A stretch of 39,669 nt of DNA. Source: Deltaproteobacteria bacterium. Lineage in GTDB: Bacteria > Myxococcota_A > UBA9042 > DTJE01 > S145-11. The DNA lies in assembly GCA_015493765.1 (NCBI GenBank), contig WGCQ01000220.1:1-39669 (forward strand), written 5' to 3'. Under the pieces are notes generated by a model that saw nothing but the letters and a program-made list of their open reading frames with translations, did not search any database and was not told the origin of the DNA. The translations under genes were made by a program, and so were the position numbers. This document shows positions 15,530 to 31,679 of the stretch, piece after piece. Position 1 is the stretch's first letter. Every line of letters starts with the position of its first letter.

Positions 15530-16824
15530 GGGACGCCCGGCAGATAAAGGACGAGATTGTTGCAAGGCTGCTTGCGGCAACGGACATTACGGACATCAGG
15601 CCCGGGAGTGTGGCCGACCAGATCGTGGGGGCGATTGCCGCGGTGCTTGAGCAGGCCTATCTGGATATCGAGACCCTGAAGGACCTGTACTACTTTGATC
15701 GGCTGCACGCAGAGGAACTGGATGCAAGGGCTGCGGATATCCTGCCGGATGGTATGGAAAGACAAGAGGCAAGCAGAAGCCAGTCCCCTGCAGTGGTGGT
15801 GGTACGTAAAGAGGCCGGGAATGCCCTGGATATTCAGGATGGTATGGTACTGATAGAGTACCAGGGGCATCAATATCAAAACACAACCACAGTCCACTTT
15901 GATGCCGGAGAAACAAAATCAGGACCTGTCGGTTTCATTGCCCTTGAGCCCGGGAGTAACGGTAATCTGCCAGCAGGTACGACCTTCAAAGTGGTGTCCC
16001 CCGAGGGGATGCGGGAAGCATACTGCAACATGCCCTTTACGGGAGGCACGGACAGAGAGTCTGACGAGGCATTTCGGGCCAGAATCCGCGAGTATGCCAG
16101 GGGGCTGCACACGGCGACGGTCTATGCCCTGCAAAACGCAATCCGGAACCAGGAGTTTGCCTCTGGCAGGGTGAGGTTTGCAAGACTGGTTGAGTCATCC
16201 GGCGGGGTTACGATCTGGATCGATGATGGAAGCGGGAATCTGGATATGACCCGCAGCGCCACGGACGAAGAAAAAACGATCTGCGAACCCTGCGGAACAA
16301 CAAATTTTCTGTGGCTGCCTGTGTGGCCAATCAAAGAGGACGGAGGATTCACCGTATATGCAGACAGCACGGCCTATGCAATAGAAAACCTGGGATGGGA
16401 ACCCCAGTGGGGCAGGATAGAATTGCCCGGTAACGAAACAATTTCAAAGGCCTATGTGGATGGCAGCCTGAGCATCTATCTGGGGCTCGTGGCAGAGGTC
16501 CAGAAAGCGGTTGAGGCTGTCAGACCGGCAGGCATACCGGTAAGGGTCCTGCCCGCACAACGGAGGGGGGTGAGCATAAAGGTTCACGTGCTGTACGAGC
16601 AGGGTACGGATGTACCGGGTACTGCAACAAAAATCGAGCAGGCCATAACGGACTACGTGAACAACCTGGACATCGGAGAGCCGCTTTACCTTTCCTCCCT
16701 GATAGCCGTGGCCCGAATGGACGGTGTGGAGACCGTGCGCAGTGTACTGGTAAACGATAATCAGCAGGACATCAGACCTGCGATGAACGAAGTCGTACGA
16801 ATCGACAGTGTGGAGGTGATATGA
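15526..16824 (+). CDS. Baseplate wedge protein J
   Basis: A 432-residue protein starting at ATG 15,526 after GGAGG at 15,514-15,518. It has the main features of the baseplate_J family: N-terminal helices (DIRPGSVADQIVGAIAAVLEQ; LHAEELDARAADIL), the central GPVGFIALEPGSNGNLPAGT block (about 133-152) and the GGTDRESDEAFRARI segment (about 173-187). The C-terminus ends in VRIDSVEVI. The protein forms part of the wedge that surrounds the hub and links to the sheath initiator. It directly follows the gp25-like gene, as in P2- and Mu-like phages. Confidence 0.9.
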   Translation: MRDARQIKDEIVARLLAATDITDIRPGSVADQIVGAIAAVLEQAYLDIETLKDLYYFDRLHAEELDARAADILPDGMERQEASRSQSPAVVVVRKEAGNALDIQDGMVLIEYQGHQYQNTTTVHFDAGETKSGPVGFIALEPGSNGNLPAGTTFKVVSPEGMREAYCNMPFTGGTDRESDEAFRARIREYARGLHTATVYALQNAIRNQEFASGRVRFARLVESSGGVTIWIDDGSGNLDMTRSATDEEKTICEPCGTTNFLWLPVWPIKEDGGFTVYADSTAYAIENLGWEPQWGRIELPGNETISKAYVDGSLSIYLGLVAEVQKAVEAVRPAGIPVRVLPAQRRGVSIKVHVLYEQGTDVPGTATKIEQAITDYVNNLDIGEPLYLSSLIAVARMDGVETVRSVLVNDNQQDIRPAMNEVVRIDSVEVI

Positions 16825-17987
16825 AAAAGGTAAACTGGCAGTCGTATGAGCGCATAGACAGCAATGACCTCAAGGCCTTGGCAGACCTTACTGATGAGGC
16901 GTTGGGGAATGCCCTGAATGCGGTATTCGGGAGCATTACAGGGGTGCTTGTCAGCCAGGATCCGCCAACCGCGACACAGGCAGGGGATGGAACATATTCG
17001 GTGACCCTGCCGAAAGGCCTGGTGTTCTACTCGGGGGGCACCTTGATTAAACTTGCCAGGGTCTACCAGGTGACAGGCATTGTCCTGGACTCCAACCACA
17101 CCGATGCCTACATCACCCTGGAGATCAATCAGGCCGAGCCCCCCGACGAGTTGCACGCAAAGGAAAACCGGATATTCTGGGACGTACAGCAGGGCAAGGA
17201 GGTGGTTAATCAGGTCCAGACCCAGGTATGGCCTCTGCCTGCCTTTGGCTGGTCCTACCCCATGAAAGTGCCTGTGGGGGTGTATCCCAATATGACTTTT
17301 GTCGACTTTCCACCCGCAAATAGCGTGCTGTACCTCAACTATTCTTCCGGTACTGTAACCACCCAGTGGGTACAGGTCCTGCCCCAGCCTTCTCAGTGCG
17401 GTGTGGACACGGTTAATGCGCTGCTCGGGAAGATCACTACGGCTCTGGGGAATGCAATTCAGAGTGAATGGGACCAGTACAACAATGATAACCTGTTGAC
17501 GGCTGTGTCCTGGAGGTTGAGGGGGGTTATCGTACTTGAACCGGACGATGCCACAAGTTACGGTTTTGGAGGCCAGATAGTGGATGCAGAATGGATTGCT
17601 GCCTACTATGATTCGGCCAATGATGCGTATTACGCACCCGGATGGTCACTGACCTGGCGGGATGCCGGCGTGCCGCAACTACAGGATCCTTCTGCCGATC
17701 CGGCAAACTCATCGTTGTGGACCCCACGGCAACCGCTGGTACTTCCCGTGTTTTCCGATGAACTTGAAAATCCGGATCAACACCTGGGTGGACCGGATGG
17801 TGACCAGTATAGAATAGGAAATGCAAGCAATTTCAATACAGTAAAGAGTGTCCCCAGGATTACCTGGCTGTGGGGAAGCGCAAGCAATGGATACTACAAA
17901 GACCTGAAGGTCTGGGCATGGAAGGAAGGGCAAACGTGCCAGAATCTTCCCTGTTTTCCGGACAAAGTGGTTTTATTCATCTTTTAA
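16821..17987 (+). CDS. Baseplate or tail fibre protein, unknown family
   Basis: A 388-residue protein starting at ATG 16,821, overlapping the J stop by ATGA, with GGAGG upstream. The N-terminal 90 residues (MKKVNWQSYERIDSNDLKAL; GDGTYSVTLPKGLVFYSGG) look like the attachment domain of fibre-like proteins whose bodies vary. The rest is Trp- and Tyr-rich and probably beta-structured (SWRLRGVIVLEPDDATSYGF; PGWSLTWRDAGVPQLQDPS). In P2-type phages the I gene would stand here, but I do not see I-like sequence. Likely roles are fibre or tip protein that binds the host. Confidence 0.55.
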   Translation: MKKVNWQSYERIDSNDLKALADLTDEALGNALNAVFGSITGVLVSQDPPTATQAGDGTYSVTLPKGLVFYSGGTLIKLARVYQVTGIVLDSNHTDAYITLEINQAEPPDELHAKENRIFWDVQQGKEVVNQVQTQVWPLPAFGWSYPMKVPVGVYPNMTFVDFPPANSVLYLNYSSGTVTTQWVQVLPQPSQCGVDTVNALLGKITTALGNAIQSEWDQYNNDNLLTAVSWRLRGVIVLEPDDATSYGFGGQIVDAEWIAAYYDSANDAYYAPGWSLTWRDAGVPQLQDPSADPANSSLWTPRQPLVLPVFSDELENPDQHLGGPDGDQYRIGNASNFNTVKSVPRITWLWGSASNGYYKDLKVWAWKEGQTCQNLPCFPDKVVLFIF

Positions 17988-17996
17988 GGAGGTGAG

Positions 17997-18944
17997 ATGG
18001 TCCAGGCAAATGCCGGAAATGACGTAACTTATGACAGCCCACCGGGGAGCCTGCAGCTTGACGGGACGGCATCAAGCAGCCCTGGCCGACAGATTGTGTC
18101 ATACAAATGGTACATTGTGGACCAGCCTGAAGGGGCAAATGCTGCATTCGATGACGACACATCCAGCAAGCCGACCCTGAGCGGTATTGACAGGCCCGGG
18201 ACATACAGGGTGTTTCTGGTTGTAACGGACGACCTGGGGGACAAAAGCGAGGAAAACCCCTATGAAGCGCCTGAAGCGGCCTTTGCAAATATCATGGTAA
18301 AGACCGCATACAAAGGCCTGGTCATGCCTGCTGCCGGGCAGCGTAACTGGGACAGTTATGTGAATCAGGCTATCAACCAGTTGGACGAGACAGCCAATTA
18401 TGCCGAGACACACAAAATAGAGGACCACCCCAACTGTCAGGCCACAACCACCGAGCTCAATGAACTCACAGGCCACGCAGGAGCGTTCAACGCAGATGCC
18501 ATGCACCGGCACACGCACAGGTGGGTGATGGGTGCCAGGGGGCACAAGGCCGATACAGGGGCGCTTGAAGGGGGACTTGCCAGTGGCGTGTATGCGGCCG
18601 CGCGGGTGGCTGGCACGCTGACCATCAAGCGGGTCGGATACACCATGCTGGATGGTGGCAAACCGGATGATGACAACACAGCACAGTGGCAGTTCGGACT
18701 GTATAAGATTGGGACCACAGAGTTTGAAAGTGCTGCGTGGGCCCAGGCAAACGTAATTGCCACCTTTACACCACAGCCTCCATCCACACCTCATAGTCCC
18801 CTGCAGGGCACTACCGATGCCCTGGATGTGTCTGTTGGGCCTGATGAAATTCTGATTCTGAAGATTGACCAGGTACCCACGGGAACGAACGCCGAAACAG
18901 GAGACGGCCTTGATATCACTATTGAGGCGGAGGCAACCGGATAA
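17997..18944 (+). CDS. PKD-domain tail fibre or tip protein
   Basis: ATG 17,997 follows AAGGAGG (17,987-17,993). The 315-residue product starts with a clear PKD-like domain (about 3-100): VQANAGNDVTYDSPPGSLQL, IVSYKWYIVDQPEGAN and GTYRVFLVVTDDLG. Residues about 115-190 contain a short helical region with several His residues (HKIEDHPNCQA; MHRHTHRWVMGARGHK). The C-terminal half is beta-rich (GTLTIKRVGYTMLDGG; DEILILKIDQVPTG). PKD/Ig-like domains in phage tails often bind surface polysaccharide weakly. The gene follows the fibre-like gene and is likely to be a distal tail component. Confidence 0.6.
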   Translation: MVQANAGNDVTYDSPPGSLQLDGTASSSPGRQIVSYKWYIVDQPEGANAAFDDDTSSKPTLSGIDRPGTYRVFLVVTDDLGDKSEENPYEAPEAAFANIMVKTAYKGLVMPAAGQRNWDSYVNQAINQLDETANYAETHKIEDHPNCQATTTELNELTGHAGAFNADAMHRHTHRWVMGARGHKADTGALEGGLASGVYAAARVAGTLTIKRVGYTMLDGGKPDDDNTAQWQFGLYKIGTTEFESAAWAQANVIATFTPQPPSTPHSPLQGTTDALDVSVGPDEILILKIDQVPTGTNAETGDGLDITIEAEATG

Positions 18945-19372
18945 TGTACGGCAATCCTGAGCACGTGGGCTTTGGTGACCCATCAAGCCTGACAGGGATT
19001 GAGGGCACGCCCGAAGGTTTCGGCAGTCCTCAGCTTACCATGCTGGTCAGGAGCGGCCTGCTCGAGACGGAGGAGACCGGTGGCCAGGTAGTAATCGAGT
19101 CTTCAGCGGACTGGCCGGATGGACCTGTCCGGGTGTTTGCCCAGCCCACTGACACACAGGCTGTTATTGTGCAAAGGGACGAGGCGTTTCAAAATCGCTT
19201 GCTCGTTTATTTGCCCCCTTTGGCACCCGGCCGATATACACTGAAAATCGTTACAAAAAAAGGCTCGGCCGTGCTGTCGAATATCCTGTTTGTTCTGCCT
19301 GACCGGGAACATCCCCAGGTACTCATGTTGAGGGGATTCTTCCCTGCCCCGGTATATCTCCGCATGAATTGA
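18944..19372 (+). CDS. IPT/TIG-like small tail protein, last gene of the module
   Basis: ATG 18,944 overlaps the previous TAA by one base. The 142-residue product has an Ig-like pattern (VRVFAQPTDTQAVIVQRDEA; LLVYLPPLAPGRYTLKIVTKK; AVLSNILFVLPDREH) like IPT/TIG domains. It is the last gene of the late operon. After its stop at 19,372 there is no further phage gene before the tRNA. It could be a tip or fibre accessory protein. The function is not known. Confidence 0.55.
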   Translation: MYGNPEHVGFGDPSSLTGIEGTPEGFGSPQLTMLVRSGLLETEETGGQVVIESSADWPDGPVRVFAQPTDTQAVIVQRDEAFQNRLLVYLPPLAPGRYTLKIVTKKGSAVLSNILFVLPDREHPQVLMLRGFFPAPVYLRMN

Positions 19373-20385: not shown

Positions 20386-22953
20386 ATGCATTTTAATAAA
20401 CCAAACACACACAGCAAACCGGTACCGGTCGTATCATACAAACGTTGCAAGGCCAAAACAAATCCTGATGGCTCACCCGGTATGACCGTTACCGAGCATT
20501 GCAGGATCGTGGGTGCGGTGGCAGAACAGATCCTGGAACAATTGCCTGGTTGGGTGAAGGGGCTCTTTCCCCAGGGGTCCGTGGCATTGGCCGCTGCACA
20601 TGATGTGGGTAAAATTTCACCCGGATTCCAGAAAAAATATTTCAATACATGGCTGCGTACCGTAAGCCCTGCTCTGGCAAAGATGGATGATGCTAATTTC
20701 GAGCAAAATCATGCGGTTATCAGTGAGGCTGCCCTGATATACTGGTACGCAAAACACGGTCTGGTAAAATGCAACGATTGGGCCCAGGTTGCGGGTTGGC
20801 ATCACGGCAAGCGTCAAAAACCCGATGTATCAACCATTGGACCTGTTCAGACGCCGCAGATATACGGTGGACAGGCATGGGAAAATGAACGCCAGGCCTT
20901 GTTGGAGGATCTGTTTCATACCTTTGGTGAGCCGCCGAATGTTACGCCTGATCTAATTAAAATCCTCGTTGCTTCAGGCCTGGTAACTGCTGCGGATTGG
21001 ATTGGGTCCAATGAAATCTTGTTTCCCGACGGTACGGATACTGAAAATAGGGACCATTTGATGCGTGTTGCGAACAACGCCCTATCAGCAATAGGATGGA
21101 CCCAGCCAAAGGTAAAAAAGGGCATGTCTTTCAAGGAAGTGTTCGGTTTTACACCCAACAGCATCCAAAAAGAGATGACAAACCTGGTAAAAGGACCTGG
21201 CCTGTATATTATCGAGGCCCCCATGGGCATGGGCAAAACCGAGGCGGCCCTGTACGCGGGGTACAGGCTGATGGAAACCGGGCAGGCCAGGGGCCTGTAT
21301 TTCGCGCTGCCCACCAGGTTGACCAGTAACCGTATCCATGACAGGGTGAACCGGTTCCTGAAAAACATCACGGATAAAAATGCCATGCTGATCCACTCGA
21401 CCTCCTGGTTGGAGGGATTGAATGATGCGCATAAAGGCGAAATGCAGGTCGGGCACTCCTGGTTTAACCCCAGGAAACGGGCCTTGTTGTATCCGTTTGG
21501 GGTTGGGACCATTGACCAGGCCCTGTTGTCCGTTTTACGGGTGAAGCATTTTTTCCTGCGCCTGTTCGGCCTGGCCGGCAAGGTCGTGATCCTGGACGAG
21601 GTGCATTCCTACGATATGTACACGGGTACGCTGCTTGACCTGCTGGTGAAACAGTTACTGGGCCTGGGAGCAACCGTGATCATCCTGTCCGCAACGCTGA
21701 CTGCTGAACGCAAAAAGGATTTTACAGGTGTTACGGCATCAAAACTTGATTTTCCACTACTCAGTGTGGCGTCCGATTCAAAGCCCTTGATAGAATCTTC
21801 GGCCCAACCGCCTGCCACAAAGAAAGTTTTATTGAGCCTTACGGATCAGGATGACACTACCGTGGCAAAACAGGCGGTTGCAAAGGCCGCACAGGGTTGC
21901 TGCGTGGTGTGGATACAGGACACGGTTCAGGCAGCGCAGGACGCCTATAACCTGGTAAAGGCCGAAATGTCAGAGGACCAGTTTGAGGTCGGCCTGTTGC
22001 ATTCCAGATTCCCGTTGTACCGCAGGAATGCCATAGAAAACAAGTGGTTACAATTACTGGGCAAGAATGGAAAACGATCTGAAAGAGGTGCCATTTTGAT
22101 TTCCACCCAGGTGGTTGAACAAAGCGTGGACATTGATGCGGATTTCATGATCACGGAAATAGCACCCATGGACATGATTCTTCAACGCATGGGCCGGCTG
22201 TGGAGGCATGAACGAAAACTCCGGCCCGTGGATTACCCAGAGGTGTGGGTGTTGACCAGGGGTGCCGAACATGCGGACAACGCCAGGGAATTCAAAAATC
22301 GGCTGAAATCCATTGGCAAGGTATATGCACCCTACGTGATCTGGCGAACCTTGGAGGTACTGGGCCAACAAACGGATATAGGATTACCCAATGATATTCG
22401 CGCCTTGCTGGCAAGCACTTATGAACAATCCCCAGGAACCGAACCTGACTGGGTAGAACAATTACGGCAGGAACTGGATAAAAACAAAGAGGACCTGCAA
22501 CGCATGGCATTGTCCATGACCGCCCAGGCTTTGCCGGCCCTTGATGACGACGAACGGGCAGCCACCAGGTACAGCACCATCCAATACAATCAGGTCCTAT
22601 TGGTAAGGTCATTTGATACCACTGGTGACAGGGTGGACATTACACTGGCCAGCAGGGACAAGGTCAGCGTGGAACGCGACCAGAGGGACCTTGGGGTCAT
22701 AAAAAAACTTTACGAAAACCTGGTTTCCGTGCCAGCATATTATTTGCCTGACCAGTGTAAGCCCATCGATCAAAAAGATGTGTTAAAAGACTGTTTTTAC
22801 ATGGATGTGTACGTATTAGAGATACACTCGGATGCCCGCTTGACCTGTCCGGGTTTTGGTGATACACCATTAATGTACACCGATGAACGGGGGGTGGAAA
22901 GGGACAATGAATACACCCAAAACACAGGAGATTACGATGAATTTGATTGGTGA
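20386..22953 (+). CDS. cas3: Cas3 helicase-nuclease (type I-E)
   Basis: An 855-residue protein with an N-terminal HD nuclease and an SF2 helicase. HD motifs: H38 (TEHCR), H72-D73 (AAHDVGK), H109 (QNHAV) and H139-H140 (WHHGK). Helicase motifs: Walker A at about 278-286 (APMGMGKTE), DEVH at 404-407, SAT at 435-437, motif V near 573-586 (STQVVEQSVDIDAD) and motif VI at 600-608 (QRMGRLWRH). All key residues are present. Cas3 is recruited by Cascade to a bound target, nicks and then degrades it. It is the first gene of the operon; its end overlaps the cas8e start by 17 nt. Confidence 0.96.
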   Translation: MHFNKPNTHSKPVPVVSYKRCKAKTNPDGSPGMTVTEHCRIVGAVAEQILEQLPGWVKGLFPQGSVALAAAHDVGKISPGFQKKYFNTWLRTVSPALAKMDDANFEQNHAVISEAALIYWYAKHGLVKCNDWAQVAGWHHGKRQKPDVSTIGPVQTPQIYGGQAWENERQALLEDLFHTFGEPPNVTPDLIKILVASGLVTAADWIGSNEILFPDGTDTENRDHLMRVANNALSAIGWTQPKVKKGMSFKEVFGFTPNSIQKEMTNLVKGPGLYIIEAPMGMGKTEAALYAGYRLMETGQARGLYFALPTRLTSNRIHDRVNRFLKNITDKNAMLIHSTSWLEGLNDAHKGEMQVGHSWFNPRKRALLYPFGVGTIDQALLSVLRVKHFFLRLFGLAGKVVILDEVHSYDMYTGTLLDLLVKQLLGLGATVIILSATLTAERKKDFTGVTASKLDFPLLSVASDSKPLIESSAQPPATKKVLLSLTDQDDTTVAKQAVAKAAQGCCVVWIQDTVQAAQDAYNLVKAEMSEDQFEVGLLHSRFPLYRRNAIENKWLQLLGKNGKRSERGAILISTQVVEQSVDIDADFMITEIAPMDMILQRMGRLWRHERKLRPVDYPEVWVLTRGAEHADNAREFKNRLKSIGKVYAPYVIWRTLEVLGQQTDIGLPNDIRALLASTYEQSPGTEPDWVEQLRQELDKNKEDLQRMALSMTAQALPALDDDERAATRYSTIQYNQVLLVRSFDTTGDRVDITLASRDKVSVERDQRDLGVIKKLYENLVSVPAYYLPDQCKPIDQKDVLKDCFYMDVYVLEIHSDARLTCPGFGDTPLMYTDERGVERDNEYTQNTGDYDEFDW

Positions 22954-24367
22954 TCCGTGGATACCTGTTGTCATGTGGGACGGGAAAGCCGTGATGAAGG
23001 GGCTGGCAGCCCTTTTTAAGGACGCGGAATCGATCCATGACCTTGTGATGAATCCCCTGCAGAGAATCGCGATCATGCGCCTGCTGATAGGGATCACCCA
23101 GGCCGCGCTGGATGGTCCCCAGGATGAAGACGATTGGGCCCAATCCAGGGACAGGATCCAATCTGCCGTGCAAAATTATTTGCAAAAACAATGGGATGCG
23201 TTCGAGTTGTTCGGACCAAGGCCCTTTTTGCAGGTGCCCACAACGCAAATCAATGGTATTCAATATAATGCAACCATTGACAAACTGGATTTTACCCTGG
23301 CTTCGGGTAATAACCCGACCTTGTTTGATCACCAGGCAAACGAAGACGGGAGGCAACATTCCCCGGCCTGGCTGGCCCTGAACCTGATTACATACCAGTG
23401 TTTTGACCCTGGAGGGCTGACATCCCAGGTCGAATGGAACGGCATGATGACACAAAGATCAGCCAACCAGGCCCCTTGCGCTGAAGGCTCGATGATCCAC
23501 CTGTTCATACAGCGGGACAACCTGCTGGACACGATCCACATGAACCTTCTGACCAGGGAACTGGTTGCAGCAACAAAACTGGAGTGGGGCAAACCGGTCT
23601 GGGAGATCACATCGGATTATGATGCACTGAAAAACACGTACCTTGGCCGGCTGACGCCTTTGTCCAGGCTGATAGCACTGAAACCTGATTCAACCAGGAT
23701 AATGATTGCAGAGGCAATCAGATTTCCCGGCCTGCCGACAAGGGACCCGTTTGGAACAGTAATAGCCAACAAAAAAGAGGAGTTAACTTATATTGGCATC
23801 CGGGCCGGCCGGCACCCATGGCGAGACCTGCATGCTGTGTTGTCCCTGGGTGGTCAGGGAAAGACCGGAGGTCCCCTGGTCCTGGAACACGTGAACAATC
23901 AGGGCAGTACGATGTTTGAGTTATGGACGGGTGGATTATTCAAATCTAAGGCCAAGTTGTTGGGCACCCCACAATGGATATTCAGAATACATACTACTTG
24001 GCTTGGCAAAAGTATGTTAAATTTGTATGAAAGCGGTGTCAAATTGGCCGATACCTGTGAAATAATGCTGAAAAAGGCTGTAAAGGCTTATGCATCTAAA
24101 CTCACGGCTGAAGCAGGTCCTTTTTCCAAACCCGCTACATCGTACTACTGGTATGCCCTGGATGCCAGGCACGAGGAACTGGAACATGCCGTGGATCAGG
24201 GGTCCCTGGATGAGTGGGAAAAAGCGGTCAGGAGCGTGATGCACCTGGCCTATGAATACGCCTGTCCCCACATTGACGCCAGGCAAATCCAGGCATTTGC
24301 TTGGGGCAGGAAGCATTTGCACTGTAAACTCAGTCAAAATTCCCAAAATGAGGAGGAGGAAGAATGA
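22937..24367 (+). CDS. cas8e: Cas8e (Cse1/CasA), large Cascade subunit
   Basis: The chosen ATG 22,937 has AGGAG at 22,926-22,930 and gives the typical beginning MNLIGDPWIPVVMWDGKAV. An upstream in-frame ATG at 22,883 would add 18 unrelated residues inside cas3. The product has 476 residues, normal for Cse1. Typical segments include FELFGPRPFLQVP and LGGQGKTGGPLVLEH. Cas8e recognises the PAM and recruits Cas3. The gene lies between cas3 and cse2, as in most I-E operons. The following start overlaps by ATGA. Confidence 0.93.
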   Translation: MNLIGDPWIPVVMWDGKAVMKGLAALFKDAESIHDLVMNPLQRIAIMRLLIGITQAALDGPQDEDDWAQSRDRIQSAVQNYLQKQWDAFELFGPRPFLQVPTTQINGIQYNATIDKLDFTLASGNNPTLFDHQANEDGRQHSPAWLALNLITYQCFDPGGLTSQVEWNGMMTQRSANQAPCAEGSMIHLFIQRDNLLDTIHMNLLTRELVAATKLEWGKPVWEITSDYDALKNTYLGRLTPLSRLIALKPDSTRIMIAEAIRFPGLPTRDPFGTVIANKKEELTYIGIRAGRHPWRDLHAVLSLGGQGKTGGPLVLEHVNNQGSTMFELWTGGLFKSKAKLLGTPQWIFRIHTTWLGKSMLNLYESGVKLADTCEIMLKKAVKAYASKLTAEAGPFSKPATSYYWYALDARHEELEHAVDQGSLDEWEKAVRSVMHLAYEYACPHIDARQIQAFAWGRKHLHCKLSQNSQNEEEEE

Positions 24368-24855
24368 AACCAGACCCAAAATATCTTCTCAAACAACTGA
24401 AAGGTCTGCAGGACGACCGTGGCGCAATGGCTGCCCTGCGCAAGGGCTTCAGCAAGGCCACGGAGGTCAGGGCCTGGCCCTATGTGGCCAGGTGGTGTAA
24501 CCTGGAAAACGATAAAGATCGCACCATTGTCCAGTTCATTGCCGCTGCCTATGCCCACCATCCCCAAAATGTTCCACACATGGATATGGGCACTGTGATG
24601 CGAAAGATCGCAACCGGCAGCGGTATGAAACAAAAGGATGCCCTGAATACATTTGAGGGGCGGTTCAGGCGCCTGCTGACGTGTCAGGGTTACGAGGACC
24701 TGTGTAAACTTTTACCCGGCGTAATTATCACGGCATCAAAAAAAGACATTGGTATTGATTACGTCCAATTGTTCAATGACCTGTGGTATTGGAACGACAA
24801 TACCAGGCTGCATTGGGCAGGTTCATACTGGAACGTCAAACAGGAGGACCAGTAA
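24364..24855 (+). CDS. cse2: Cse2 (Cas11/CasB), small Cascade subunit
   Basis: A 163-residue, mainly helical and basic protein that begins at ATG 24,364 with GAGGAGGAAGA just upstream. It carries features of the family: the start KYLLKQLKGLQDDRGAMAALRKGF, the middle SGMKQKDALNTFEGRFRRLL and the end NDLWYWNDNTRLHWAGSYW. Cse2 forms a dimer in Cascade and helps to hold the displaced strand. It lies between cas8e and the cas6e gene, and its last base is shared with the next start codon. Confidence 0.9.
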   Translation: MKPDPKYLLKQLKGLQDDRGAMAALRKGFSKATEVRAWPYVARWCNLENDKDRTIVQFIAAAYAHHPQNVPHMDMGTVMRKIATGSGMKQKDALNTFEGRFRRLLTCQGYEDLCKLLPGVIITASKKDIGIDYVQLFNDLWYWNDNTRLHWAGSYWNVKQEDQ

Positions 24856-25487
24856 TGTTTTTGTCAAGGGTGGTGATCTCAAGCAGGGACGCGGCAATGC
24901 ACAAATTGAGTGATCCAGGGGCGTGGCACCGACAATTGTGGGCCTGTTTCCCGGGGCGACCGGATGCAAAACGCGATTTTTTGTTCCGCGTGGAACACCG
25001 TGAAGGGGGGCTCCAGGTCCTGTTGCTGTCAAACATACGACCGACCATCCCCACCTGGGGTCAATGGCAGACAAAGGCCGTGGCTGAAACCTTCCTGGAC
25101 CATGATTTTTACATCTTTCAGTTGCTGGCCAATCCAACGATCAAACGAGTGGTCAGGGATGAACAGGGCAACCGACGTAAAAACGGCCGCAGGACAGGCA
25201 TTTATTCCATGGAGGAACTGAAAGCCTGGATCGAACGCAAGGCGTCGGATAGCGGGTTCAAACTGGTGCAACTACAATTCGAACCACCGGTTGATCACGT
25301 GTTTTTGCGTGGGCCCAAAAAGGTCAAGTACACGGGCGTTGAGTTCAAAGGTATATTAAAGGTCATTGACCACCGGGCGTTCCAGGACGCCTTTGTGCAC
25401 GGAATAGGTCCGGCAAAGGCGTTTGGATTCGGCATGCTGGTGGTCAAGCCTGTAGATTTTTCAGCAAACAACAAGGAGGAGTTATGA
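24855..25487 (+). CDS. cas6e: Cas6e (Cse3/CasE), crRNA-processing ribonuclease
   Basis: ATG 24,855 overlaps the previous TAA and follows GGAGG (24,843-24,847), giving 210 residues; an upstream in-frame start lies within cse2. The N-terminal MFLSRVVISSRDAAMHKLSD and PGAWHRQLW match the Cas6e start, with H25 the likely catalytic His. The C-terminal glycine-rich loop GIGPAKAFGFG (183-193) is typical. Cas6e cuts each repeat at the base of its hairpin to leave an 8-nt 5' handle. Its place before cas7e is not the E. coli order, where cas6e follows cas5e. Confidence 0.93.
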   Translation: MFLSRVVISSRDAAMHKLSDPGAWHRQLWACFPGRPDAKRDFLFRVEHREGGLQVLLLSNIRPTIPTWGQWQTKAVAETFLDHDFYIFQLLANPTIKRVVRDEQGNRRKNGRRTGIYSMEELKAWIERKASDSGFKLVQLQFEPPVDHVFLRGPKKVKYTGVEFKGILKVIDHRAFQDAFVHGIGPAKAFGFGMLVVKPVDFSANNKEEL

Positions 25488-26527
25488 AACTTATTGAACT
25501 GCACATCATCCAGTCATTCCCGGTGACCGCACTCAACCGTGATGACGTGGGTGCACCAAAATCGGCATTGTTCGGTGGCGTACCCAGGGCCAGGGTCAGC
25601 AGCCAGAGCTGGAAACGGGCGATCCGTGAACTGGCAAAACAGAACAATTCAGCGTTATTCCGGGGCAACAGGACGCTGTTCCTGATCGAGGAGTTGAGAA
25701 AAGCCTTGGAGAATCAGGGGTTTTCGATGCAGGACGCCGTGGATTGGGCCAAGGAAATTGCGGAACATATCGGGAATATAGACAACGATGTGAAAACCAA
25801 GGTGGCTTTGTTTTTCAGTCCCGGCGAACTGGAAATCATTGCCAAAAGGGCCAAAGAGACATTTGACCGCAATGAAAATGTAAAAAAAGTGATCAAAAAA
25901 TTGGTAAAAGGTCTGCATGCCAAGGACATCGCGGATATCGCCATATTCGGCCGCATGGTGGCAAATGATCACACTTTGACTGTTGAGGCAGCAGGCATGT
26001 TCAGCCATGCCTTGTCCACCCACAAGGTTCAAAACGAAATTGATTTCTTTTCCGCTGTGGATGACCTGAAACCAGTGGATGCCGAGGATGCCGGTGCCGG
26101 GCACATAGGTGTGCTGGAATTCAATTCCGCGTGTTATTACCGTTATATCGGGTTGAACGTGGACATGTTGAGGGATGAAAACCACTTGGGGCATATGGAT
26201 CCCAATGAATTCAATGCCGTGTTGGATGCCTTCATACGGGCCGCGATCATGGCAGTACCCAATGCACGGAAAAACACGATGTTCGGTTTTACACCGCCTG
26301 AATACGTACTGGGCCTGGTCAGGACAGGGCAGCCCGTGTCCCTGGTGAATGCGTTTGAAAAACCGGTGCGGTCAGGCAAAGGCTACGTGGTGGACTCGAT
26401 CAAGGCCTTGAATGAAAAATATGACCTCATATTTGAAAAATTCAGTCTGGGGACACCGGAGTTGAAAATAAACATACCTGACAAGGACCTGGATACGTTT
26501 TGTTCAGAGGTGATCAGCCATGTCTGA
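25484..26527 (+). CDS. cas7e: Cas7e (Cse4/CasC), Cascade backbone
   Basis: A 347-residue protein starting at ATG 25,484 after AGGAGG. The beginning (LIELHIIQSFPVTALNRDDVG; KSALFGGVPRARVSSQSWKR) is typical of Cas7e, including the conserved SSQSWKRA segment. GHIGVLEFNSACYYRYIGLNV and AVPNARKNTMFGFTPP are also family features. Six copies form the helical backbone that holds the spacer part of the crRNA. Cas7e overlaps both neighbours by 4-8 nt. Confidence 0.96.
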   Translation: MKLIELHIIQSFPVTALNRDDVGAPKSALFGGVPRARVSSQSWKRAIRELAKQNNSALFRGNRTLFLIEELRKALENQGFSMQDAVDWAKEIAEHIGNIDNDVKTKVALFFSPGELEIIAKRAKETFDRNENVKKVIKKLVKGLHAKDIADIAIFGRMVANDHTLTVEAAGMFSHALSTHKVQNEIDFFSAVDDLKPVDAEDAGAGHIGVLEFNSACYYRYIGLNVDMLRDENHLGHMDPNEFNAVLDAFIRAAIMAVPNARKNTMFGFTPPEYVLGLVRTGQPVSLVNAFEKPVRSGKGYVVDSIKALNEKYDLIFEKFSLGTPELKINIPDKDLDTFCSEVISHV

Positions 26528-27227
26528 TAAATACCTGGTATTGTACCTGGATGCCCCCATGCAGGCGTGGGGTGCAGACAGCAGGTTCGACAGGCGTAAC
26601 ACGTGGAATTTTCCCACAAAAAGCGGTGTGATTGGCATGCTGGCCGCGGCCATGGGTATAGACCGAAAGGACCAGGCAGGGCTGCGGGAGATCGCAAACC
26701 TGGCCATGAGAGTGGTCGCCCTGTCCCGTGCCACGGCTATTACGGATTACCAAACCATTGGCGGCGGGTATGACAGCAAGGTAGCACCGGATTCAATCCC
26801 ACGTCGTGCCACGGGAAAAAGCGGCAAAGATGCAGTTGTAAGTCCACGCGAATACCTTGTAAATGGCAAATTCGGTGTCTTTATCAAAGGGCCTGCGGAT
26901 ATCATGAAAAAATGCGCGGATGCCTTGGACAACCCTGTGTGGGGCATCTGGCTGGGCCGCAAGGCCTGCGTACCTGCGGAAAAGGTCTGCCTGGGGGTAT
27001 TCGATAATTTTTCGTCCGCGTTTGAACAGTTACGCAGGGTTTATAAAATGCTTTATTCCAGGGATCTGCCGGATACGCTACGGGTGGTGGATGAGGTAGG
27101 CCTGCTGGAAGGCACGGAAACGCTTTTTGACATACCCAGGGATTTTCATGAACGGATTTTTGATACCAGGCGCGTGGATGTGGCTAATGTAGATTATAAA
27201 TCTTTGGTAGAAAATGCCGATTTTTGA
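26520..27227 (+). CDS. cas5e: Cas5e (CasD), crRNA 5' handle-binding subunit
   Basis: A 235-residue protein starting at ATG 26,520, overlapping cas7e. Family features: LYLDAPMQAWGADSRFDRRN, PTKSGVIGMLAAAMGIDR and the later WGIWLGRKACVPAEKV. Cas5e caps the 5' handle of the crRNA and contacts Cas8e. The start codon overlaps the previous stop region, and the end overlaps the cas1 start by 14 nt. Size is normal. Confidence 0.95.
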   Translation: MSDKYLVLYLDAPMQAWGADSRFDRRNTWNFPTKSGVIGMLAAAMGIDRKDQAGLREIANLAMRVVALSRATAITDYQTIGGGYDSKVAPDSIPRRATGKSGKDAVVSPREYLVNGKFGVFIKGPADIMKKCADALDNPVWGIWLGRKACVPAEKVCLGVFDNFSSAFEQLRRVYKMLYSRDLPDTLRVVDEVGLLEGTETLFDIPRDFHERIFDTRRVDVANVDYKSLVENADF

Positions 27228-28047
27228 AAGACCCCCGCTTGAGACATTGACCCCGGCCAAGGACCGGTGGACGCCCCTTTACCTGGAACACGGTAGGCTG
27301 GAGGTGGATGACTCCAGTATAAAATGGATAGGCGCGGACAGGACGATTCTACGAATCCCCGTGGCCACAGTGAGCGTGTTGATGCTGGGGCCTGGTACGA
27401 CGGTGACCCATGCTGCGGTCAAGGCATGCAGTGACAGCAACACGCCGATTGCCTGGGTCGGCGCGGACGGGCTGCGTTTCTATGCGTTCGGGGTGACTCC
27501 CACGCATGACAACAAGCGCGCCAGGCACCAGGCTGCAATGCACGCATCGCCGAAAAAACGGGCGGAGGTGGCCAGGCGCATGTTTGCCAAGCGTTTCCCG
27601 GAAGCCGTGGTGCGTAGCAAAAGCATCAAGGAACTTATGGGCATGGAGGGTAAACGGGTAAAGGCATTATACGCTGATCTGGGCCACAAATACGGGGTTA
27701 CCTGGCGGGGCCGCAATTACAACCCGAACAATTGGGTGCTGGCCAACAATATAAACCGTGCCATATCTGCCGCTAATGCTGCATTGTATGCGTTGACCAC
27801 CGCGGTGGTCACGTCCATGGGATATGTGCCCAGTCTGGGCTTTATCCATTCAGGTGGGCAGATACCGTTCGTGTATGATGTGGCAGATATCTACAAACCG
27901 GAAACAACACTGGAGGCTGCTTTTCAAACAATAAGCATAAATCCCGACGCAAATGAACAGGATACCCTGGAACTGTTAAAAATCATCATAGAACAAACAC
28001 ATCTGATGCGCAGAATGCCCAAGGATATTCCGGAGTTATTATCATGA
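27214..28047 (+). CDS. cas1: Cas1, spacer integrase (type I-E)
   Basis: A 277-residue protein (E. coli Cas1 has 305). The three metal-binding residues are recognisable: E145 (GMEGKRVKALY), H212 (LGFIHSGG) and D222 (FVYDVADIYK, with D225 close). The beginning RWTPLYLEHGRLEVDDSSI is typical. With Cas2 it forms the complex that inserts new spacers next to the leader. The gene overlaps cas5e by 14 nt and cas2 by 4 nt, so the adaptation genes are translated together with the interference genes. Confidence 0.96.
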   Translation: MPIFERPPLETLTPAKDRWTPLYLEHGRLEVDDSSIKWIGADRTILRIPVATVSVLMLGPGTTVTHAAVKACSDSNTPIAWVGADGLRFYAFGVTPTHDNKRARHQAAMHASPKKRAEVARRMFAKRFPEAVVRSKSIKELMGMEGKRVKALYADLGHKYGVTWRGRNYNPNNWVLANNINRAISAANAALYALTTAVVTSMGYVPSLGFIHSGGQIPFVYDVADIYKPETTLEAAFQTISINPDANEQDTLELLKIIIEQTHLMRRMPKDIPELLS

Positions 28048-28337
28048 CTGTGATTATTGCGAACAACACGCCGCCCGCTATAAGAGGCATGTTGAAACGC
28101 TGGTTCATTGAACCCAGGCCTAATGTATTCGTGGGCACGGTAAACCGGAAAACACGTGACAAGACATTAGAGTACATCAGGCGTAACGCCCCGGAACTCG
28201 GATTGTTGATTATCGCATCCGATGACAGTTCCCAGGGTTTTTCCATCAAAACCTATGGAGAAACCAACCGGAAGGAAGTAAAGATATCCGGTCTTTTATT
28301 GATTGCGGAAAAATGGGAAGAGGATGGGATTGGATAG
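28044..28337 (+). CDS. cas2: Cas2 (type I-E), adaptation subunit
   Basis: A 97-residue protein with the I-E type beginning MTVIIANNTPPAIRGMLKRW and the FVGTVNRKTRDKT segment. It ends soon after LLLIAEKWEEDGIG, so it is not fused to a DnaQ domain as in some I-E systems. Instead a separate exonuclease gene starts 14 nt before its stop. Cas2 is the structural bridge of the Cas1-Cas2 integrase. Confidence 0.95.
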   Translation: MTVIIANNTPPAIRGMLKRWFIEPRPNVFVGTVNRKTRDKTLEYIRRNAPELGLLIIASDDSSQGFSIKTYGETNRKEVKISGLLLIAEKWEEDGIG

Positions 28338-29109
28338 CACTAAAGTTTATTCGGTACTGAAACGAACCTTTTGTCACCTTCCAGGAGTGAGTAAAAGTGC
28401 TGAACAACGCCTGTGGTCAAGGGGTATTATCGACTGGGATTGCTTTGAACGCCATGGCAGCACCATGTTTTCTCCTAAAAAATTCATCAGGGTAAGAAAT
28501 CAGTTATTGGAATCCAGAAAGGCCCTGAACAAAGGTAATATTCGCTATTTCATGGATCTTTTACCTCTTGAGGAACGTATCCGTGTATATCCTGATTTCA
28601 GGGACGCAGTTGTTTTTTTAGACATTGAAACAACGGGTTTGTCGCGCAAAAGCCAGATAACAACAATTGCCTTGTACGACGGCAACCAGGCCAGGACTTT
28701 TGTCAGGGACAAAAATCTGGATGACTTTGTGAAAGCGATTTTGGAGTACGATCTGATAGTTACCTATAACGGAACACGGTTCGACATTCCGTTTATCAGG
28801 AAAGAATTTGGCATAAAACTGGATATAGCACACCTTGACCTGCTTCCTGTACTGCACAAATTGGGTTATTTCGGCGGTCTGAAAAAGATCGAAAAGATAT
28901 TGGGCATAGTCAGGCAAGCCAAAGATATGAATGGTAAAGTAGCCATAGATCTATGGGATAAATACCAGAAACAAAAGGACATTCTTAGTCTGAAGAATCT
29001 ATTGGATTACAATATGGAAGACGCAAAAAATCTCGAAAAAATAATCAATTACATTTCCAATCGCTTTCTGAGAAATATTCCAGGTTATCGACGTATCGCG
29101 TTAAATTGA
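28324..29109 (+). CDS. DEDDy 3'-5' exonuclease (YprB/RNase_H_2-like), CRISPR-linked
   Basis: A 261-residue protein from ATG 28,324, preceded by GGGAAGAGG; TTG 28,303 and TTG 28,330 are alternatives. The first 45 residues look like a helix-hairpin-helix (CHLPGVSKSAEQRLWSRGII). The rest is an RNase H-like exonuclease with D100-x-E102 (FLDIETTG), D154 (YNGTRFDIPFI) and Y229-xxx-D233 (YNMEDAKNL), the DEDDy set. D172 lies in HLDLLPVL. The family is like YprB/RNase_H_2. The gene overlaps cas2 by 14 nt and ends 101 bp before the array, so it is co-translated with the adaptation genes. Trimming of prespacers is the likely role, by analogy with DnaQ/Cas4-type processing in other systems; this is inference. 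Confidence 0.85.
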   Translation: MGLDSTKVYSVLKRTFCHLPGVSKSAEQRLWSRGIIDWDCFERHGSTMFSPKKFIRVRNQLLESRKALNKGNIRYFMDLLPLEERIRVYPDFRDAVVFLDIETTGLSRKSQITTIALYDGNQARTFVRDKNLDDFVKAILEYDLIVTYNGTRFDIPFIRKEFGIKLDIAHLDLLPVLHKLGYFGGLKKIEKILGIVRQAKDMNGKVAIDLWDKYQKQKDILSLKNLLDYNMEDAKNLEKIINYISNRFLRNIPGYRRIALN

Positions 29110-29210
29110 TAAGTGTTCTTTGATAAATAAATCTGTTCTTAGCAAACGAACAAATCGTTGGAGGTACTACATGTAGCGGTTGACTTATCCTATAGGTACT
29201 ATATACTGCT
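29110..29210 (+). promoter_or_regulatory. CRISPR leader with promoter
   Basis: The 101 bp between the exonuclease stop and the first repeat. A good sigma70-type promoter lies at its end: TTGACT (29,180-29,185), 16 nt, TATACT (29,202-29,207). Transcription would start near or within the first repeat. A perfect 10-bp palindrome CTACATGTAG (29,167-29,176) lies just upstream of the -35 box. The leader is AT-rich at its start, and the array is oriented away from it, as expected from the 5' handle sequence. Confidence 0.75.
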
Positions 29211-31679
29211 CTTGTCCCCACACACGTGGGGATGTCCCGTCTATGCTTACCATGAGTAAAATTATCATAGTCTTGTCCCCACACACGTGGGGATGTCCCG
29301 GAATTATATAAAATCTGTCCATTTCAGGATTTCTTGTCCCCACACACGTGGGGATGTCCCGACAAAAGCCTTTATTTTAGAGAATGTAGAAGGCTTGTCC
29401 CCACACACGTGGGGATGTCCCGCCAATTGTTGGTGGTGTTTCCATGGCGTCAACCTTGTCCCCACACACGTGGGGATGTCCCTTCAAGATTTTATTAAAT
29501 TAGTACATAATATGACTTGTCCCCACACACGTGGGGATGTCCCGATTCTGCGCCTGTTAGGAGAGGCACTTCAGTTCTTGTCCCCACACACGTGGGGATG
29601 TCCCGGCATATAATTTAGGTAAAATCGAAACAAACTCCTTGTCCCCACACACGTGGGGATGTCCCGGCCGAGCCATGAAAAATTATTGCGTCTATGCACT
29701 TGTCCCCACACACGTGGGGATGTCCCGGCCGCGTTGGTTCATGTGCACGAATTGCGTGACTTGTCCCCACACACGTGGGGATGTCCCGGAAAATAAAAGA
29801 ATAAACCCATTAATAACTAACTTGTCCCCACACACGTGGGGATGTCCCGACCCCGGAGGATATAGCCAAATTCATGGCCAACTTGTCCCCACACACGTGG
29901 GGATGTCCCGGCGGTTAGGTCATGTGCTTGACCGCCTTGAATCTTGTCCCCACACACGTGGGGATGTCCCGGCGGTATAATATGAGTATTCCAACAATTT
30001 TCACTTGTCCCCACACACGTGGGGATGTCCCGTATCAGTTAAGGAAAAAACCTTATCTGATAATCTTGTCCCCACACACGTGGGGATGTCCCGATTAGAT
30101 GAAGTGAAGGGCTTGGATGGAAATGCTTGTCCCCACACACGTGGGGATGTCCCGTCGTCCGATATATCTGGGAATTCACCACAGACCTTGTCCCCACACA
30201 CGTGGGGATGTCCCGCGAATAGAGCATGGAAAATGCGTGATAGTAACCTTGTCCCCACACACGTGGGGATGTCCCGTATACGGACCAACAGGTCCAGGAG
30301 ATGCGGGCCTTGTCCCCACACACGTGGGGATGTCCCGAGAATTTTTAATATTGAAATTTAATGGGTTGGCTTGTCCCCACACACGTGGGGATGTCCCGTT
30401 ACGATCTATATCCAGGACGTGTGACCGGCCCTTGTCCCCACACACGTGGGGATGTCCCGTAATAGAAAATGAAGTAAGTCCGGTTGAAACACTTGTCCCC
30501 ACACACGTGGGGATGTCCCGAATTATATCCGTATTCATTTACGAAAGTGGACCTTGTCCCCACACACGTGGGGATGTCCCGCAAGAGAGATGAAACGGCT
30601 AACCGGCTATGGGCTTGTCCCCACACACGTGGGGATGTCCCGATTTGTAACCCCTAACAGGTAAACCCACGTTTCTTGTCCCCACACACGTGGGGATGTC
30701 CCGTTTTATCGGTCAATGTCCCTGTCCTGCTGATACTTGTCCCCACACACGTGGGGATGTCCCGGAAAATGTCTCAGCAGGAAATTCCGTTTCTAACTTG
30801 TCCCCACACACGTGGGGATGTCCCGTATATCAAGCCCCACCTTACCAAGAACATGAGCTTGTCCCCACACACGTGGGGATGTCCCGTTTCAATCTTTTCT
30901 GCAGGATATAGGTATGGACTTGTCCCCACACACGTGGGGATGTCCCGGGGAGGTCGATATGTTGTTACCACGGAAAATCCTTGTCCCCACACACGTGGGG
31001 ATGTCCCGCATCCAGCGCAGGCATCCAAAACAAATACTACCTTGTCCCCACACACGTGGGGATGTCCCGAGCAGAGCATTTACGAAGGTGGAGATCTTGA
31101 TCTTGTCCCCACACACGTGGGGATGTCCCGTCATATGACAAAAGCGGCGGTTGGTTCTGGTTCTTGTCCCCACACACGTGGGGATGTCCCGTAAAACCGG
31201 TTGAAACAGAGGTCGAGACAGAACTTGTCCCCACACACGTGGGGATGTCCCGCCCCTGAAAAACATGCCATGCGCTTTGCCCTGCTTGTCCCCACACACG
31301 TGGGGATGTCCCGGATCCAATGCGCCTGCCAAGGCTTAAGGCTGTCTTGTCCCCACACACGTGGGGATGTCCCGATTGTTGCAGTCCTTTGCAACATCGG
31401 ACCGGCCTTGTCCCCACACACGTGGGGATGTCCCGCATCCACAGTATAGGGATCGCCCTGCCCTACACTTGTCCCCACACACGTGGGGATGTCCCGCGTG
31501 AAATTCTCGAACATCTTAAAATGACGTTCTTGTCCCCACACACGTGGGGATGTCCCGAGATCAAACGACACGCTGGGATACGGGTCGTCCTTGTCCCCAC
31601 ACACGTGGGGATGTCCCGGACTTTGCTGATGGGTTTGCGTACCGATACCCCTTGTCCCCACACACGTGGGGATGTCCCG
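29211..31679 (+). CRISPR. Type I-E CRISPR array, 41 repeats and 40 spacers
   Basis: The 29-bp repeat begins CTTGTCCCCACACACG and ends GTGGGGATGTCCCG. It recurs with a 61-bp period from 29,211 to the last copy at 31,651; the distance 2,440 is exactly 40 periods, so spacers are 32 bp. The inner CCCCAC/GTGGGG arms form the hairpin cut by Cas6e, giving the handle ATGTCCCG, related to ATAAACCG of E. coli. The copies look identical except the fifth (29,455-29,483), whose last base is T. The + strand is the crRNA strand and the leader is at 29,110-29,210. No degenerate terminal repeat is seen. Confidence 0.98.

Follow-up and report, generated by a model that had tools for sequence, protein, structure and literature searches.

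A stand-alone DEDDy exonuclease gene directly after cas2e in one lineage of type I-E CRISPR-Cas loci

Which enzymes make the 3' ends of prespacers in type I-E systems that lack Cas4? In E. coli these enzymes have been described as yet to be determined, and both DnaQ and ExoT are dispensable there (PMC9699676). The lineage described here, in which a predicted exonuclease gene directly follows cas2e, bears on this question.

The locus and its exonuclease

The window (the whole stretch of DNA that was analyzed, 39,669 nt) carries a complete type I-E locus that runs from cas3 (from 20386) through cas2e (to 28337) and ends in a CRISPR array, all on the + strand. The genes are, in order, cas3 (HD nuclease-helicase, 20386-22953; PF18019, PF22590), cas8e (cse1, 22883-24367; PF09481, TIGR02547), cse2 (cas11e, 24364-24855; TIGR02548, PF09485), cas6e (24855-25487; TIGR01907), cas7e (25484-26527; TIGR01869), cas5e (26520-27227; TIGR01868), cas1e (27214-28047; TIGR03638, E=4e-94) and cas2e (28044-28337; PF09707, E=8e-25, and TIGR01873), followed by the exonuclease gene. 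The cas6e ORF opens at 24783, with the family match from residue 25 and an ATG at 24855. Cas2e is an unfused protein of 97 aa. All eight I-E cas genes together with a 29/32 array place the locus in type I-E, and there is no cas4 in it. Just upstream of cas3, ORFs at 16821-19372 resemble phage tail or structural genes by eye and hint at a prophage or mobile region adjoining the locus.

The exonuclease gene (28324-29109, +; 261 aa) starts at the ATG at 28324 and stops at 29109, in a different frame from cas2e. It overlaps cas2e by exactly 14 nt; an alternative in-frame TTG at 28330 would reduce the overlap to 8 nt. A leader of 101 nt (29110-29210, +) separates its stop codon from the first repeat at 29211, where the array of 41 repeats of 29 nt and 40 spacers begins (29211-31679, +). 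The gene thus lies between cas2e and the leader, and its coordinates and overlap agree with those given in a preliminary description of this DNA.

The protein matches the Pfam family RNase_H_2 (PF13482) with E=5.7e-36 and 124 bits against a cut-off of 22; its match to RNase_T, at 15.9 bits, is below the cut-off of 24. In an alignment of 50 relatives, D100, E102, D154, Y229 and D233 are invariant, which is the DEDDy type. These residues form motif I (D100-I-E102, 28621-28629), motif II (D154 of NGTRFD, 28783-28785) and motif III (Y229-x3-D233, 29008-29022), all on the + strand. The DxE, D and YxxxD residues first read from the single sequence are therefore both present and invariant across the 50 homologues. 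The N-terminal helix-hairpin-helix proposed at the same time is borne out in part. The motif LPGVSKSAEQRLWSRG (residues 11-47; 28354-28464, +) reads as a helix-hairpin-helix, is conserved in the family and has predicted helices, but the Pfam HhH models do not match the N-terminus of the protein.

The AlphaFold2 model of the exonuclease has a mean pLDDT of 95, and the top solved neighbours found with it in Foldseek are family-B DNA polymerases, at TM-scores normalised by the query of about 0.45, so that only part of the chain is matched. Family-B DNA polymerases carry DEDDy proofreading domains. Judged by its sequence, the window protein is a predicted DEDDy 3'-5' exonuclease of the PF13482 family.

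Recurrence of the linkage in one Cas1e group

Scans of genome contigs and viral contigs with the single protein gave no matches, and a profile was required. We scanned the genomes of 84,980 species with a profile and examined the nearest 80 of at least 275 confirmed relatives, searching the flanking DNA for repeat arrays and for matches to the eight Cas proteins of the window. Three of the 80 lie directly after cas2e in complete I-E operons: L063 (Eisenbacteria), L070 (Kiritimatiellia) and L082 (Lentisphaeria), whose contig ends within the exonuclease gene. No CRISPR linkage was seen for the remaining 77, and for 70 of these at least 600 nt of upstream sequence is available to judge. This distribution indicates that the family at large is chromosomal, that the linkage is a minority trait and that the ancestral role lay elsewhere. 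Relatives on haloarchaeal plasmids match over almost their full length (about 35% identity) and were set aside, as their neighbours in the three regions inspected are non-CRISPR genes; viral relatives are weak and mostly partial matches. Some relatives are larger proteins. For instance, L005:1504-2844 (+) has a C-terminal extension that looks BRCT-like by eye, and in L103, L107, L108 and L109 the relatives lie in ORFs of ~680-750 aa with ~400 further residues fused.

Four more linked loci, L180 (L205), L182 (L207), L184 and L186 (L209), came to light when 338 genomes from the phylum of Kiritimatiellia were searched for Cas1e. Cas1e searches of genome groups centred on Desulfobacterota, Planctomycetota and Calditrichota gave no further linked copy; there, L224 has a close Cas1e (62%) but no exonuclease. 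The linkage thus occurs in eight genomes from at least three phyla (Eisenbacteria, Kiritimatiellia, Lentisphaeria, four genomes of the phylum group of the latter two, and the window), in every case with the exonuclease in the slot behind cas2e and on the same strand. In 8/8 the exonuclease start codon lies between 14 nt inside and 1 nt past the cas2e stop codon. The catalytic residues are kept in the linked copies, and one linked pair has a dN of 0.28 against a dS of 2.81, which indicates sequence constraint. The conservation of the cas2 linkage, which the preliminary description had proposed as a check, is therefore found, with intact active sites. That description had also held that the role would be in doubt if homologues occurred mostly away from CRISPR loci. 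This is literally the case for 77 of the nearest 80, yet the linked copies are coherent and track one group of Cas1e proteins.

The window Cas1e is 72% identical to that of L063, 70% to that of L082 and 64% to that of L070. Other I-E Cas1e proteins in the window's own phylum are about 40% or less identical to it, and their loci have a different gene order and no DEDDy gene after cas2. In the Cas1e tree all eight linked loci fall inside one group of 11 rows (93/85), with the gene order cas6e-cas7e-cas5e-cas1e-cas2e. Of the remaining three rows, L178 and L181 have the array directly after cas2 and no exonuclease there, and L187 (L210) was counted neither way because its contig ends at cas2. The exonuclease is thus not strictly required, since two loci of the same Cas1e group do without it at this place; it may be dispensable there or replaced by host enzymes. 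Other additions to these operons were seen as well. Two exonuclease-linked I-E operons encode a related extra protein between cas6e and cas7e (L204:3683-4717, -; L205:8951-9910, -), in which repeats resembling HEAT, a CxxC pair like that of a zinc ribbon and an end resembling restriction endonucleases can be made out by eye. Between cas8e and cse2, one exonuclease-free locus in this Cas1e group has a gene that looks DUF1016/PDDEXK-like by eye (L203:5093-6136, -).

In the tree of the exonuclease itself, six of the eight linked copies group together (93/83), and the window and L063 copies have long branches without a resolved position. A tree constrained to hold all eight in a single clade is 4.5 log units worse and is not rejected (p-AU 0.42); a single capture and several captures are both possible. 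One genome, G380, holds one linked and one unlinked copy. The window's genome has one other PF13482 match, which fits RNase_T better.

The slot after cas2e is also used by other enzymes. In a sister Cas1e group, L190 and L191 have a stand-alone DEDDh exonuclease of the RNase_T family (PF00929) at this position, starting 2 nt after cas2e in the first (L190:567-1133, -) and 6 nt after it in the second (L191:551-1141, -). More distant I-E loci of the Kiritimatiellia phylum (L198-L200) encode Cas2-DEDDh fusions, such as L198:2433-3299 (+), where the order is cas7e-cas5e-cas6e-cas1e, as seen in L221, the fuller L198 locus. A further candidate fusion, L201, was dropped, as its ORF runs into chorismate synthase at the contig end. 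The presence of different DEDD enzymes, DEDDy or DEDDh, at one position argues for a shared task. An I-E locus without an exonuclease there has an NA37-like nucleoid-associated protein (PF04245, at the cut-off) just after cas2e (L194:109-1116, -).

Spacer length and the probable role of the exonuclease

All 40 spacers of the window are 32 nt long, as first noted for the visible ones, and all 40 intervals have a 61-nt repeat-spacer unit. The suggestion that the exonuclease may set this length does not hold. I-E loci without an exonuclease at this place keep the 61-nt unit in 275 of 279 intervals, so that the length belongs to the Cas1-Cas2 ruler. In DEDDy-linked loci the unit is found in 236 of 255 intervals, and most exceptions come from L070, whose irregular spacing was set aside because of indels in its repeats. 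In this array (L070:10829-13935) the spacing ranges from 57 to 67 nt, for which the indels suggest an assembly error, and G and C are about equally frequent as the last repeat base.

The last repeat base in E. coli I-E derives from the PAM side of the prespacer. It is G in 40 of the 41 window repeats; in the exception, at 29455-29483, position 29 is T and all other repeat bases are identical. In other linked arrays it is G in 35/43 (L205) and 109/115 (L209) repeats, and in unlinked arrays in 53/53 (L211), 38/38 (L212) and 34/36 (L217); these are raw counts, and spacers within one array are not independent. The window array has no match among annotated phages, so the PAM is not readable from it.

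We consider it likely that the protein is a dedicated 3'-5' DEDDy exonuclease of the I-E adaptation module, which trims Cas1-Cas2-held prespacers in trans. In such a module, a DEDDy exonuclease would have been recruited by one type I-E lineage and would be translated together with cas2e. It would contact Cas1-Cas2 and act in trans on the prespacers held there, digesting DNA from the 3' end and trimming the overhangs to the length that the Cas1-Cas2 ruler dictates; the overhang on the PAM side would probably be removed after the first integration step. There is precedent for both steps, as a fused DEDDh exonuclease trims prespacers bound to Cas1-Cas2 down to size and, once half-integration has taken place, removes the PAM end (PMC10284694). 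The complete DEDDy site, the confident model, the cas2e-coupled starts in 8/8 genomes, the absence of cas4 and a dN below dS all favour this role, as does the confinement of the eight linked loci to one Cas1e group although Cas1e proteins of the window's own phylum are only about 40% identical. Against it stand the two loci of this group without the gene, the unchanged spacer length where the exonuclease is absent and the 77 unlinked relatives among the nearest 80. In addition, removal of DnaQ and ExoT in E. coli changes prespacer ends little (PMC9699676). On balance the exonuclease probably acts with Cas1-Cas2 as a dedicated trimmer of prespacer 3' ends.

A broader reading is that I-E integrases have repeatedly acquired their own trimming exonuclease (DEDDy in the window lineage, stand-alone DEDDh in the sister lineage and Cas2-fused DEDDh elsewhere), and that in the DEDDy case the exonuclease is stably built, as a subunit, into a new type of Cas1-Cas2 trimmer-integrase, to which it brings its own helix-hairpin-helix DNA-binding domain. 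We put this forward tentatively, as somewhat short of an even chance.

The coupling to cas2 also bears on whether the enzyme might serve interference instead, degrading the single-stranded DNA that Cas3 and Cascade produce, or feeding fragments to adaptation generally, with co-expression as the sole reason for its place in the operon. Single-strand digestion is a general property of DEDD enzymes, and the gene is co-directional with the whole effector operon. However, in 8/8 genomes it is coupled to cas2 and not to cas3 or the Cascade genes, and the same slot in the sister loci holds an enzyme of a kind known to fuse to Cas2, which makes an interference role unlikely.

Could the gene be a passenger, that is, a housekeeping exonuclease for repair that became trapped next to the locus and spread with it by horizontal transfer? 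The chromosomal, unlinked position of most relatives, the absence of the gene from L178 and L181 within the same Cas1e group and the long branches of linked copies would all fit. We nevertheless regard this as quite improbable: the overlap and strand are the same in eight genomes of at least three phyla and were kept while Cas1e fell to 64% identity, the active site and coding sequence are under constraint, and G380 retains a separate unlinked copy. Least plausible is a function as an RNase in crRNA trimming or in processing of the array transcript. PF13482 and the DEDD superfamily do include RNases, and the substrate cannot be read from the family name; but Cas6e retains the 3' handle in I-E, crRNA trimming is not known there, and the nearest solved folds are DNA polymerases.

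Comparison with known exonucleases

In the literature searched, we found no description of a DEDDy/RNase_H_2 gene at cas2, and an earlier mention in subscription papers is possible. The likely trimmer described here resembles DnaQ and ExoT of E. coli, which are stand-alone 3'-5' exonucleases and in vitro trim prespacers that Cas1-Cas2 has bound; these are encoded outside the cas operon and are dispensable in vivo (PMC9699676), whereas the window enzyme is encoded in the adaptation operon. It shares its full-length architecture, including the helix-hairpin-helix-like N-terminus, with the PF13482/YprB-like chromosomal exonucleases of haloarchaea, Desulfobacterota and others (31-44% identity), which lie outside CRISPR loci.

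Stand-alone DEDDh exonucleases have been called "widespread ancillary components" (PMC10284694). Like the ancillary CRISPR exonuclease modelled by PADLOC PDLC01247, the window enzyme is a separate DEDD gene in a cas locus, and L190 and L191 have theirs in the same slot. The window protein reaches only 25 bits with this DEDDh model, its best stretch being model positions 1-26 of 139, against 90 bits for L190 and 63 for L191, and Y replaces H in its motif III.

The closest parallel is the Cas1-Cas2/DEDDh trimmer-integrase (PMC10284694); Drabavicius 2018, cited in PMC9699676, also deals with a DnaQ-like fusion of Cas2. In both the trimmer-integrase and the window, a DEDD-superfamily 3'-5' exonuclease (predicted in our case) is coupled to Cas2e, and the I-E system lacks Cas4 and has a 61-nt unit. 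There the exonuclease is fused, whereas in the window it is a separate protein encoded in another frame with a 14-nt overlap; there it is DEDDh (H-x4-D, PF00929), here DEDDy (YxxxD, PF13482). The window protein also has the helix-hairpin-helix-like region at its N-terminus and belongs to a different Cas1e lineage and gene order. The distinction drawn at the outset between a stand-alone DEDDy protein coupled to cas2 and the Cas2-DEDDh fusion is upheld by the separate ORFs and the YxxxD motif. With no fusion and no DEDDh motif, the window exonuclease is outside the Cas2-DEDDh family.

A lineage with a separate, non-DEDDh exonuclease after cas2, and sister loci that have none or have a DEDDh enzyme, constitutes a natural experiment. 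Cas1, Cas2 and the exonuclease also form a compact set with which acquisition could be rebuilt in vitro, or DNA recording made independent of host nucleases. The window exonuclease probably works like Cas2-DEDDh, and it would be the stand-alone DEDDy counterpart of the Cas1-Cas2/DEDDh trimmer-integrase.
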